Shown in pieces: positions 45,101-54,100 of a stretch of 64,000 nt of DNA (position 1 is its first letter; every line of letters starts with the position of its first letter). The stretch lies in NCBI RefSeq assembly GCF_965363235.1, contig NC_134841.1, positions 55,449,078-55,513,077 of the forward strand, in the 5' to 3' direction. The notes below the pieces were generated by a model that was not told the DNA's origin, did not search any database, and saw only the letters and a program-made list of their open reading frames with translations. Source of the stretch: Mytilus galloprovincialis (Eukaryota > Mollusca > Bivalvia > Mytilida > Mytilidae). The translations under genes were made by a program, and so were the position numbers.

Positions 45101-48100
45101 TAAGTGATAGAGGCCTAGGGTGTTTTGATTGGAGGTCCTTGGTTAATAAAAATGAGAATGAGGTCAAGGTCATGTTCAAAATTTTGATTTTGGCTTGTTA
45201 TCTATCATTTTCAGAAATCTTATAAGATATCGACAAAATATTTTCACACAATTGTTAGTTGCGACATGTCGTTTAACACATAAATTTTAGTCTAAAGGGT
45301 ACGTAAACATTTGATGCGAGTTTTCCCCCCTTTATATCTAATATCAGTCGTATGGTAATATAACTTATTAACAATATAAAGTAAAGACCTAGAGTCTTTT
45401 GATTTGAGGTCCTGGGTTTATGACCTTGAAATTGAGCTCTAGGTCATATGTTAAATTAACGTTCTAGATTTTGACCTTTGCTTTTATGTATTCATGTTAA
45501 AGCTATTAGACTTTTTGCATTAGGTTGCAAGCAATATGACGTTGAAAAAACTAACCGGAAGTGACCTTTTGGTAACCGAAAGTAGCTAATTTTTGTAATA
45601 AATTATTGTAAAAGTATGTAAAACCATATATTTTTGGAATCAGTGTCAAGTACACTATAAGACAGTACCGGAAAGTAACACATTTTGAACTGGAAGTAGA
45701 AAATTATCTCCCTTATTTATATCTTTTTGTATAGAAACCTTATATTTTTAGAATAAGCGTACAATAAGTTGCCATTTGACGCTGAAATTAATATTTTAAA
45801 ACCAAATTTTAATACTTTCATATCAAAATAGATCCTTACTGGTGGAAAGACCTTCAATTGTTCTCTGAACAATTGGTTTTTAATTATTATTATTATTCTT
45901 TAGCAACCATATATTTTTGAACTTACAAAGCTATGAATAATATAAATATGAAATTTCTAATACTGGAAATGACATTTTTGTCCCTAGCAATGACTTACAA
46001 GTCCTTAGCAATCACTTATTTTTTTAACTTGAAAGACTATGAATAGTACATTTTTAATACTGGAAGTAATATTTTTATCCTTAGGAATGATTTTTGTCCA
46101 TAACATAAAAGTCCTAAGCACCATATATTTTTGAACTGAGAAGGCTATCAATAAAATAAAAAAAGGTAAGACCTTTCAATTGTTCATGAACAATTGACTT
46201 TTTAATTCTATCATCATTTCCTTTCATATCAATGTTATGTAAGTGAGTTTTTTTAAAAACTTTCATATAAATTATTGCGAGTTTTTCTTACTGGGAATAA
46301 TGCAACTAGGTGAGTATCACAATAATAAGAACTTGGATTTTGATAAATAAAACAAAGATCTGAATACAGATTGTTCTAAAAGCACATTAAGGAAGCTGGC
46401 TTGTCATGTTTTGGATTGTTTGTCAGATTTTCGGAATCCTCTAGTTTTATCCATTTAAATGACTTGAAAAAATTTGCCCGGTGACCCCCATTTTTCTTTT
46501 TGAAATTCTTTAACATGTATAATGATAAGCCATCTGTAAAAGTCTTATAAAATTTTAATTACTTTTTAACAGTTTTTGAGAATTTTAACTTGTCAATGAT
46601 AAAGCTATGAAAAGTCAAGAGAGAATATTTTCCCGCCAAAATTTCAATGGCTCATATCTCGAAAACAAGCACGGTGACCTATATATTTTTTTTGCTTTTT
46701 GGATTCCTTTATTAATTCCTTATTAATATATACTAGTGTTTTGAAAAGTTAATTACTTTGAAACTGAGAAGAGAGCTCCCTTAATTAAACTCCTATTTTT
46801 TTCAATTTTTGAGAAATCACAATAATAAATGCACGCAATAATTTCTGAATTTACAGTAATACTATTTTTATACAATTCTCTTCCAAGAAAGGTTTTCTCT
46901 TAATAATGCCAACTGACTTACAAACAATCTTTCTGTGTGTATCTCTGGTGGGTGAAATAATCTAGAAAGTCCTTCTGTGAAGACAAATATCCCAATCACA
47001 ACCAGGAACAAACCATTTATAAATCCTGATAACACTTCTACTCTGTCATACCTACAAATATTAAAAGTATAAACAAACCATTTATAAATCCTGATAACAC
47101 TTCTACTCTGTCATACCTACAAATATTAAAAGTATAAACAAACCATTAATAATTCCTGATAACACTTCTACTCTGTCATACCTACAAATATAAAAAGTAT
47201 AAACAAACCATTTATATAAATCCTGATAACACTTCTACTCTGTCATACCTACAAATATTAAAATTATAAACAAACTATTAATAATTTCTAATAACACTTC
47301 TACTCTGTCATACCTACAAATATAAAAAGTATAAACAAACCATTTATAAATCCTGATAACACTTCTACTCTGTCATACCTACAAATAACTATAGTATAAA
47401 CAAACCATTAATAAATTCTGATAACACTTCTACTGTCATACCTACAAATATTAAAAGTATAAACAAACCATTAATAATTCCTGATAACACTACTACTCTA
47501 TCATACCTACAAATAACAACAGTATAAACAAACCATTAATAAATCCTGATAACACTTCTACTCTGTCATACCTACAAATATAACTAAGAGGCTCTAAAGA
47601 GCCTGTGTCGCTCACCTTGGTCTATGTGAATATTAAACAATGGACACAGATGGATTCATGACAAAATTGTGTTTTGGTGATGGTGATGTGTTTGTAGATC
47701 TTACTTTACTGAACATTCTTGCTGCTAACAATTATCTCTATCTATAACAGTACTTTCTGTGGAAAATGTTATTGAAAATCTTCAAATTTTATGAAAATTG
47801 TTAAAAATTGACTATGAAGGGCAATAACTCCTTAGGGGGTCAATTGACTATTTTGGTCATACTGACTTATTTTTAGTTCTTACTTTGCTGTACATTATTG
47901 CTGTTTACAGTTTACCTCTATCTATAATAATATTCAAGATAATAACAAAAAAACAACAAAATTTCCTCAAAATTACCAATTCAGGGGCAGCAACCTAACA
48001 ACCGATTATCCGATTCATCTGAAAATTCCAGGGCAGATAGACCGTGACCTGATCAATAATTTTACTACCTGTCAGATTTGCTCTTAATGCTTTGGTTTTT

Positions 48101-51100: not shown

Positions 51101-54100
51101 ACCTACAAATATAAAAAGTATAAACAAACCATTTATAAATTCTGATAACACTTCTACCCTGTCATACCTACAAATATAAAAAGTATAAACAAACCATTTA
51201 TAAATCCTGATAACACTTCTTCTCTGTTATACCTACAAATAACAACAGTATAAACAAACCATTTATAAATCCTGATAACACTTCTTCTCTGTCATACCTA
51301 CAAATAACAACAGTATAAATAAACCATTAATAAATCCTGATAACACTTCTACTCTGTCATACCTACAAATATAAAAAGTATAAACAAACCATTTATAAAT
51401 CCTGATAACACTTCTACTCTGTCATACCTACAAATATAAAAAGTATAAACAAACCATTAATAAATCCTGATAACACTTCTTCTCTGTCATACCTACAAAT
51501 ATAAAAAGTATAAACAAACCATTTATAAATCCTGATAACACTTCTACTCTGTCATACCTACAAATATAAAAAGTATAAACAAACCATTAATAAATCCTGA
51601 TAACACTTCTACTCTGTCATACCTACAAATATAAAAAGTATAAACAAACCATATATATAAGCCTGATAACACTTCTACCCTGTCAAACCTACAAATATAA
51701 AAAGTATAAACAAACCATTTATAAATCCTGATAACACTTCTTCTCTGTCATACCTACAAATATAAAAAGTATCAACAAACCATTTATAAATCCTGATAAC
51801 ACTTCTTCTCTGTCATACCTAGAAATAACAACAGTATAAACAAACCATTTATAAATCCTGATAACACTTCTTCTCTGTCATACCTACAAATATAAAAAGT
51901 ATAAACAAACCATTTATAAATCCTGATAACACTTCTACCCTGTCAAACCTACAAATATAAAAAGTATAAACAAACCATTTATAAATCCTGATAACACTTC
52001 TACCCTGTCAAACCTACAAATATAAAAAGTATAAACAAACCATTTATAAATCCTGATAACACTTCTACTCTGTCATACCTACAAATATAAAAAGTATAAA
52101 CAAACTATTAATAAATCCTGATAACACTTCTACTCTGTCATACCTACAAATATAAAAAGTATAAACAAACCATTTATAAATCCTGATAACACTTCTACCC
52201 TGTCATACCTACAAATATAAAAAGTATAAACAAACCATTTATAAATCCTGATAACACTTCTACTCTGTCATACCTACAAATATAAAAAGTATAAACAAAC
52301 CATTAATAAATCCTGATAACACTTCTACTCTGTCATACCTACAAATAACAACAGTATAAACAAACCATTTATAAATCCTGATAACACTTCTACCCTGTCA
52401 TACCTACAAATAACAAAAGTATAAACAAACCATTAATAAATCCTGATAACACTTCTTCTCTGTCATACCTACAAATAACAACAGTATAAACAAACCATTA
52501 ATAAATCCTGATAACACTTCTTCTCTGTCATACCTACAAATAACAAAAGTATAAACAAACCATTTATAAATCCTGATAACACTTCTACCCTGTCATACCT
52601 ACAAATATAAAAAGTATAAACAAACCATTTATAAATCCTGATAACACTTCTACTCTGTCATACCTACAAATATAAAAAGTATAAACAAACCATTAATAAA
52701 TCCTGATAACACTTCTACTCTGTCATACCTACAAATAACAACAGTATAAACAAACCATTTATAAATCCTGATAACACTTCTACCCTGTCATACCTACAAA
52801 TATCAAAAGAATAATCCTCAGTCAGGAATGTAATGTTCAGTGGTTGTCATCTGTTTATTTGGTTCGTAAGTGCTTATGGTTTTTATATAGATTAGACTGT
52901 TGGTTTTCCCTTTTGAATGGTTTTTTACATGAGCAATTTGTGGGTGCCCTTTATAGCTTGCTGTGTGGTGTGAGCCAAGACTCTGTGTTGAAGGCTGTAC
53001 CTTGACCTATAATGGTTTACTTTTATAAATTGTGACTTGAATGGCGAGTTGTCTCATTGGCACTCATACCACATCTTCCCATAACTATATAGTATAAACA
53101 AATCATAAATGAAATGCATTATTATTCAATTATGTCTTTAGTCTCAAATAAACAAATAGCAACAGTATAAGAAATCTGATATAAAATGAAATATAACTAG
53201 GTTATTTCTGAAAGTGTCAAAAATACAAATAAAGGCAACATTACCTAGAAACAGGACTATTTGACTAAATGGCATCTTTTATTATTAGTTAAAAGTAAAG
53301 CAACTTTATTTCTATGTTTCGTAATATTTTTTAAAATACAAATAAAGATTAAGAATCAGTTTTTTTAATTACACTTCTTATAAACAGCTTACCCATAAGA
53401 AAATATTCTTGTAGCTTTCCATCGACTCATAATGGCTGCATATAACCCCATAACTAATGCTGAACAATCAAATAACATATGGAAGCCATCAGATATCAGG
53501 CCTAAACTATTGGTCCACACACCATATACAAGTTCAACAAACGTAAAACACTGTAAAATATAACATCTTATGTAAAATCAGGCCTTAACTATTAGTCCAC
53601 ACAACATATACAAGTTCAACAAACGTAAAACACTGTAAAATATAACATCTTATGTAAAATCAGGTCTAAACTATTGGTTCACACACCATATACAAGTTCA
53701 ACAAACGTAAAACACTGTAAAATTGAACATTTAAATGTAAAATCAGGCCTAAACTATTGGTCCACCCAACATATACAAGTTCAACAAACGTAAAACACTG
53801 TAAAATATAACATTTTAATGTAATATCAGGCCTAAACTATTGGTCCACACAACATATACAAGTTCAACAAACGTAAAACACTGTAAAATATAACATTTTA
53901 ATGTAATATCAGGCCTAAACTATTGGTCCACACAACATATACAAGTTCAACAAATGTAAATCACTGTAAAATATAACATCTTATGTAAAATCAGGCCTAA
54001 ACTATTGGTCCACACAACATATACAAGTTTAACAAATGTAAAACACTGTAAAATATAACATCTTATCAAAAATCGGGCCTAAACTATTGGTCCACACACC

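Follow-up and report, generated by a model that had tools for sequence, protein, structure and literature searches.

Tandem arrays of 3' splice sites precede two adjacent exons of an SLC30-type gene of Mytilus galloprovincialis and recur at other SLC30 exons

In human IFI6 (6-16), splice donor sites form a minisatellite (Turri et al. 1995, cited in PMC4526556). In a potato gene, a tandem duplication across the intron 1/exon 2 boundary was reported to carry a 3' splice site, and a new intron was detected (PMC4974935). The recursive splice sites, or ratchet points, of Drosophila are described as conserved above background in long introns (PMC6110457, PMC8605326), and experiments have been reported to assign an intron-retention function to the decoy exons of OGT and other genes (PMC12017769). 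Here we describe an arrangement with features of each in the bivalve Mytilus galloprovincialis. In a 64,000-nucleotide stretch of contig NC_134841.1, hereafter the window, two adjacent exons of an SLC30-type gene on the minus strand, here labelled e and f, are each preceded by a tandem array of copies of their own acceptor, that is, their 3' splice site. Minisatellites at exon edges are already known; those described here lie at acceptors, comprise up to 53 decoys and recur within one genome. A literature search, judged by titles and abstract openings in a partial library, yielded no acceptor array of such kind and size.

Like the IFI6 minisatellite, arrays A (exon f) and B (exon e) are tandem arrays at an exon-intron junction whose units carry a splice site. 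They do so with acceptors; a donor array of a ZnT7-like exon of the same genome (locus L035, described below; 51 bp, seven copies) is the nearer match to the human gene. The IFI6 unit is reportedly short and is said to give alternative mRNAs. Unlike those short donor units, the units in the window are acceptors, are derived from exons, have lengths of 65 and 82 bp and form up to 53 decoys that all lead to stops. The potato duplication corresponds to the first step of the mechanism proposed below; in arrays A and B, too, the unit spans the junction, and the terminal copy is the functional exon. The potato case is a single duplication with a detected new intron, whereas the genomic sequence of the present locus comprises dozens of copies. 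The gene and its arrays have the following features in the window.

Minus strand of the window: SLC30-type gene, with a profile match to Cation_efflux (PF01545) over exons e-g (E 2.7e-30)
59470-59640, minus strand: upstream exon of the gene (by-eye reading)
58500-58779, minus strand: upstream exon of the gene (by-eye reading)
57466-57674, minus strand: upstream exon of the gene (by-eye reading)
53551-54425, minus strand: array B, 10 decoys of the exon e acceptor, spaced 82-85 bp apart
53393-53550, minus strand: true exon e of 158 bp, the last unit of array B; donor GTAAGC from 53392
53086-53233, minus strand: sequence with 63-65% identity, possibly older units of array A that have decayed
49879-52814, minus strand: distal block of array A, 45 decoy acceptors, 65-bp period
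47582-49878, strand not assigned: interspersed element of 2.3 kb inserted in array A and related to sequences at 29247-30684 and 26983-28275
47052-47583, minus strand: proximal block of array A, 8 decoy acceptors next to exon f, two with indels
46922-47051, minus strand: true exon f, 130 bp, encoding 43 residues, terminal unit of array A
46914-46921, minus strand: exon f donor GTAAGTCA, GTAAGTC from 46921
42885-43038, minus strand: exon g, His-rich loop; array at neither edge
39322-39548, minus strand: exon i, second H/D motif; no array, unlike the ZnT7-like exon that it matches in sequence (L039, below)
32959-33120, minus strand: last coding exon (by-eye reading)

Array A comprises 54 acceptors on the minus strand, TATTTGTAG/GTATGACAG (the slash marks the splice junction), of which 53 are decoys and the last is the true acceptor of exon f. 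Their first exon bases run from 52793 down to 47051. Neighbouring acceptors lie exactly 65 bp apart in 49 of 53 cases; three spacings are 63, 66 and 67 bp, and one is 2361 bp. The last corresponds to the 2.3-kb interspersed element at about 47582-49878. The period of 65 bp, ending in a coding exon, rules out a chance origin. Each unit consists of the acceptor with ~20 intron bases and ~45 exon bases. The array consensus is identical to the start of the true exon at 45/45 exon bases and differs from the exon's own unit solely at intron position -11. A reading of the sequence made before this analysis, hereafter the sequence-only reading, had proposed about 54 such copies of a 65-bp unit with ~20 intron and ~42 exon bases, and had taken the true exon as the terminal unit and the source. 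These proposals held, that of the source as likely, with slightly more exon sequence per unit, and the position that it gave as the start of the array, 46922, is exactly the last base of exon f.

The units of array A are similar but not uniform. The decoy adjoining exon f is identical to the exon unit at 65/65 positions, and 8 of the 53 decoys match the first 42 bases of the exon exactly. We compared columns across 49 units, excluding three with indels and two with broken flanks: 19 of the 65 columns varied and the mean pairwise identity was 93.9%. Over all 54 units, 34 distinct sequences were found. In two units, CTAG replaces GTAG. The distal block is more homogeneous (94.2% mean pairwise identity; 43 units used) and the proximal block more diverged (92.1%; 6 units used, that of exon f included). 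Long exact repeats occur inside the array, 258 bp at a lag of 390 and 234 bp at a lag of 2211. A search of the whole genome (1,384,861,812 bases in 331 contigs) with unit A, in which only the best candidates were scored, returned 54 places, all at the exon f locus. Scans of viral contigs and of non-animal genome contigs with unit cores gave no match.

Beyond the distal block, the sequence at 53086-53233 aligned to unit A with a score of 30, which was reached by 9 of 500 shuffles; the best of 52 control intron segments scored 24. This is suggestive of decayed copies by which array A may extend further upstream. By eye, a short element ending CATACCACATCTTCC appears to be inserted in or beside the array at about 52816-53085, and likewise in or beside the ZnT8-like acceptor array described below (L033, about 1820-1965). 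We considered reading the flank of the distal-most unit as ancestral intron and rejected this as unsafe in view of the insertion at about 52816-53085 and the possible decayed units beyond it; for the same reason, we do not claim the exact birth breakpoints of the array. The 2.3-kb element at 47582-49878 holds internal tandem repeats of ~500 bp.

Exon e, just upstream of exon f, has its own acceptor array of like architecture, which the sequence-only reading had not included. Array B (53495-54425) comprises 11 acceptors, TTTTACAG/TGTTTTACG, ten decoys and the true one, from 54379 to 53550 at a spacing of 82-85 bp. The consensus of the decoys equals the start of exon e at 56/56 bases. The AG is lost in two of the ten decoys (AG to AA, reading ACAA). 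Across the gene, a junction test of 9 acceptors and 7 donors detected copies at the acceptors of exons e and f only and at 0/7 donors. The two highest-copy arrays of period >10 in the gene are those at these adjacent exons.

Profile and structure matches place the gene in the SLC30/cation-efflux family. Its closest solved structure is zinc transporter 7 (8j7t; E 2.5e-43, ungapped alignment across exons e and f). A second family profile, TIGR01297, matched with 223 bits. By eye, the N-terminal exons upstream of exon e encode extra membrane-like segments, which we take to be a feature of ZnT5; compared with solved structures, these exons gave matches at chance level only (best E 0.13). The gene is thus probably ZnT5, as the sequence-only reading had named it: the family assignment is firm, and the choice of ZnT5 over ZnT7 depends on the N-terminal exons. 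Both H/D motifs, presumably metal-site motifs, are present. On this basis, the gene looks functional; its exons appear intact.

We then considered the predicted outcome of decoy use. When joined to exon e in phase, all 53 decoys of array A run into a stop after 11-48 residues. A TAG opening the next unit, the stop named in the sequence-only reading, serves in 30 of the 53, and another stop in the remaining 23. In array B, 10/10 decoys run into stops; eight of these retain the AG. The intron between exons e and f measures 6,341 bases to the true acceptor and 599 to the first decoy. Of all copies, only the true exon f continues into the full exon sequence and a GTAAGT donor. That part of the earlier claim of a proper donor on the true exon alone stands, but GTATGA, which resembles a donor, opens every decoy as well. 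Splicing to the nearest decoy would give a 195-nt exon ending at the true donor, which makes the nearest decoys plausible competitors even under exon definition.

No constraint on the decoys was detectable at the core sites of array A or at the codon positions of either array. The core acceptor of array A varies at 1 of 11 sites versus about 3 expected (P = 0.10). Variants in the exon-derived part fall on codon positions 1, 2 and 3 in numbers of 4, 5 and 4 in array A and 2, 7 and 4 in array B, with no third-position excess. The loss of AG in two array B units argues against a need for decoys. The regulatory role hinted at by the sequence-only reading thus found no support here.

Comparable arrays occur elsewhere in the genome, and the exon f locus is not the single oddity for which it had been taken. 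A genome search with PF01545 gave 11 exon matches, two of which are exons e and i of the window gene. Tandem-repeat and self-comparison analyses were run on 3.1-kb loci around these matches and on some further stretches. A ZnT7-like exon (L039; ZnT7 chain, E 2.2e-12) has seven acceptors, CAG/GTGTATTTTTACATATAATGG, including the true one, 70-71 bp apart and with AG in 7/7. A ZnT8-like exon (L033, GGVIAGSLAIISDAAHLLTDFASF; ZnT8 chain, E 1.4e-14, followed by ZnT3 and ZnT4) has six acceptors at <=9 mismatches and seven to eight upstream copies by BLAST, or 6-9 acceptors overall. The end of another ZnT7-like exon (L035, LNLSFAFVELTYGIWTN; ZnT7 chain, E 3.5e-32, computed with the next exon) is the site of the donor array: seven donors, among them the true one, read ACAAACAG/GTAAGCC or differ slightly from it and lie 50-51 bp apart. 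Finally, a ZnT1-like exon (L045, IEGVLALHEFHVWQLVGNKIIASAHIHVH; SLC30A1 chain, E 4.4e-19; ZT_dimer, E 1.5e-7) has the last of 30 acceptors, mostly 60 bp apart: 18 read ACAG/ATAG, the true one being among these AG/AT sites, and 12 read ACAG/GTAG. The last locus was found by following an array at the edge of a stretch (L041) that had itself been chosen blind to the array. Such arrays are real as a kind and recur in this genome.

We also tested the SLC30 junctions as a set, up to 1.4 kb on each side. Copies were found at 6 of 20 acceptors and at 1 of 19 donors; at one of the six positive acceptors, which belongs to the upstream L035 exon, there is just one copy. The copies lay upstream at 6/6 positive acceptors and downstream at the one positive donor, hence always on the intron side.

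Two further stretches were noted. At 3904-4334 (plus strand) of L027, beyond the window, five 60-bp copies place AACTTTTGTAG before TTCCCTTGTGATTCATGATGATGGTG (with variants), and the last copy enters a reading frame with a stop and AATAAA. This is a candidate further acceptor array of a putative gene. At 1297-5532 of L022, an 80-bp unit is repeated 51.6 times at 97% identity with a higher-order period of 401 bp; by eye, there is no exon at either end.

We consider it probable that the arrays are minisatellites straddling a junction, spliceable tandem duplications that are tolerated and expand, and thus a by-product rather than a device. According to this model, one short tandem duplication would have copied the last ~20-28 intron bases together with the first ~45-56 exon bases. 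Because each copy would bear a 3' splice site, splicing could remove all sequence before the last copy together with the intron. Nearly neutral as a result, the duplication could expand, whether by slippage or by unequal exchange. Exon definition would pick the true acceptor, as the sole copy that leads on into the exon's remaining sequence and a good donor, and splicing to a decoy would lead to an early stop and presumably to mRNA decay.

Several data are consistent with this model. A duplication that spans the junction would turn the outer copies into intron and leave the true exon terminal. Survival of spliceable copies alone would place all copies towards the intron, as found at 6/6 acceptors and one donor. 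Expansion by unequal exchange is suggested by the long exact internal repeats and local homogeneity, and the choice by exon definition by the true exon alone being followed by exon remainder and GTAAGT. The dynamics of array A also fit: it has internal repeats, a decoy beside the exon that matches it completely and a more diverged block severed by the insertion. Also in favour are the identity of both decoy consensus sequences to their exons, the missing third-position excess, the lack of significant conservation in the acceptor core, the AG losses in array B, the recurrence at ZnT1-, ZnT7- and ZnT8-like exons and the general abundance of tandem arrays around the window. Three points weigh against the model. 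Arrays at two adjacent exons exceed what simple tolerance predicts (~0.0006 for both terminal units falling on acceptors under random placement in the gene, a post hoc value), the retention of AG and GT in all copies of array A is also compatible with weak selection, and correct splicing is something that we infer from the intact look of the exons.

A different explanation, which we regard as unlikely, is that 3' splice sites are mutational hot spots at which duplications preferentially start or spread, so that acceptor arrays are enriched genome-wide. The excess of SLC30 acceptors over donors with junction-spanning copies, within <=1.4 kb, favours it. As background, we took tandem arrays with a period of 40-150 bp and >=2.5 copies. 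In 264 kb that comprise the window and its surroundings, their share is 5.7%, falling to 4.0% when arrays A and B are omitted. Against this background, the 3/10 SLC30 acceptors outside the window that have copies, L045 excluded and the two-copy case included, gave P = 0.006-0.017. However, the two-copy exon of L035 was noticed through its own donor array and L045 through an array, so these P values flatter the claim of enrichment. Moreover, of the 22 acceptors tested outside the window (10 from SLC30 and 12 from SLC6, L045 excluded), just 2 had three or more copies, which does not exceed the background (P = 0.22-0.36). The SLC6 acceptors came from 20 exons taken by E-value order from 99 matches, 5' sides only, selected for no stop in the match and an open frame of <=200 amino acids. 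Twelve had clear acceptors, counted by eye; in the other eight, the match ran from profile position 1 and offered no usable acceptor at its start. None of the 12 had upstream copies within 250 bp, which weighs against generality. A preference of arrays for acceptors over background sequence is thus not established.

An observation of another sort was made in the SLC6 sample. On the reverse strand of L053, at about 404-547, an exon end is followed by two decayed part-copies at a spacing of about 58-60. This is an old, decayed duplication on the donor side.

A third explanation is that array A erases itself. Each unit spans GT to AG (AG/GTATGA...TTTGTAG/GTATGA), and decoys would double as donors. 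A splice to a decoy would recreate a donor, after which excision as mini-introns or recursive (zero-nucleotide) splicing would take out one 65-nt unit after another, up to the true exon, making the choice of decoy immaterial. The array does resemble Drosophila recursive sites, reported to be AG/GT juxtapositions that need a short cryptic exon (PMC6110457, PMC8605326): AG/GT juxtapositions likewise mark 54/54 unit starts of array A, although not those of array B. Unlike the Drosophila sites, these copies are inherited from a coding exon and lie in a 6.3-kb intron, and their core sites show no significant conservation within the array (P = 0.10, as above). Predicted pairing of the unit donor with U1 is -5.6 kcal/mol, versus -5.4 kcal/mol for the true donor of exon f, and ranks in the top 11% among the gene's 1748 GT sites. 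A GT start is also shared by the ZnT7-like and ZnT8-like units (-6.7 and -8.0 kcal/mol) and by 12 of the 30 ZnT1-like acceptors (-8.0 kcal/mol).

Other data argue against self-erasure, and we consider it quite unlikely. The GTATGA derives from exon codons. The true exon has it too, and removal of that exon (130 bp) would shift the frame. The unit donor is weaker than five of the gene's seven true donors (-6.7 to -11.0 kcal/mol). The GT start is missing in array B, whose units begin AG/TGTTTT (-2.3 kcal/mol), and in 18 of the 30 ZnT1-like acceptors (AG/AT, the true one included). No excess constraint was detected, and an intron of 65 nt would be very short. In an extension of this idea, stepwise removal of units would act as a splicing ratchet that repairs decoy splices; selection would be blind to the copies, and arrays would grow without limit at GT-starting exons. 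We hold this, too, to be quite unlikely. If true, large acceptor arrays would be expected mainly at AG/GT exon starts.

The decoys might alternatively have a function: 53 acceptors would bind U2AF, sequester the exon e donor and detain the intron or yield poison isoforms, thereby tuning transporter output. The stops reached by all decoys of array A are compatible with this, as is the report that OGT-type decoy exons promote intron retention via spliceosome assembly with little inclusion (PMC12017769). Like those exons, the units are pairs of splice sites within an intron that lead to stops if used (53/53 in A; 10/10 in B); unlike them, they are many and derive from an exon. Against a function stand the undetectable constraint, the loss of AG in array B, the confinement of unit A to one locus among the best candidates scored, and the occurrence of comparable arrays in other genes, at other positions. 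A neutral account suffices, and we think a function very unlikely. That the array was collapsed, inflated or absent in the animal is most improbable: near-identical repeats are prone to misassembly of copy number and the exact count may be off, but invention by the assembly is unlikely given the 34 distinct units, the units with indels, the inserted element, the unequal divergence on its two sides and the independent arrays elsewhere.

Four further candidates were rejected. A cluster of alternative exons does not fit, since the decoys lack the exon remainder and all reach stops. A dispersed satellite that invaded the exon does not fit the restriction of unit A to the exon f locus in the search described above. 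The arrays are not a coding repeat: of the spacings of 65 and 82-85 bp, multiples of three are found in array A only as one 66 and one 63, and there is no codon-position signal. Finally, a structured RNA of known type was rejected, as Rfam gave no match at gathering score over 46000-55000.

Elsewhere in the window, two arrays of one 329-bp unit lie in opposite orientation at 8386-12893 (13.7 copies) and 16984-19663 (8.2 copies). They are about 98.3% identical over 2.7 kb and flank about 4 kb with a reverse-transcriptase fragment. An uninterrupted 502-amino-acid frame at 23403-24911 (plus strand) contains all three EF-Tu domains and is perhaps mitochondrial EF-Tu or a retrocopy. A long array of about 20-30-bp units (TTTTGTTGAGACAAAAGTCAATTTTGTCAA) occupies 3912-4619.

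With 53 near-identical acceptors before a real exon and exons that look intact, the exon f locus offers a natural test of first-AG scanning versus distance versus exon definition in which sequence is held constant. The further SLC30 cases suggest a set of such natural experiments in this genome, with varied copy number. Gene predictors could be misled at exons that bear arrays. Tandem duplication across a junction, in turn, is suggested as one route by which introns may grow in this genome.

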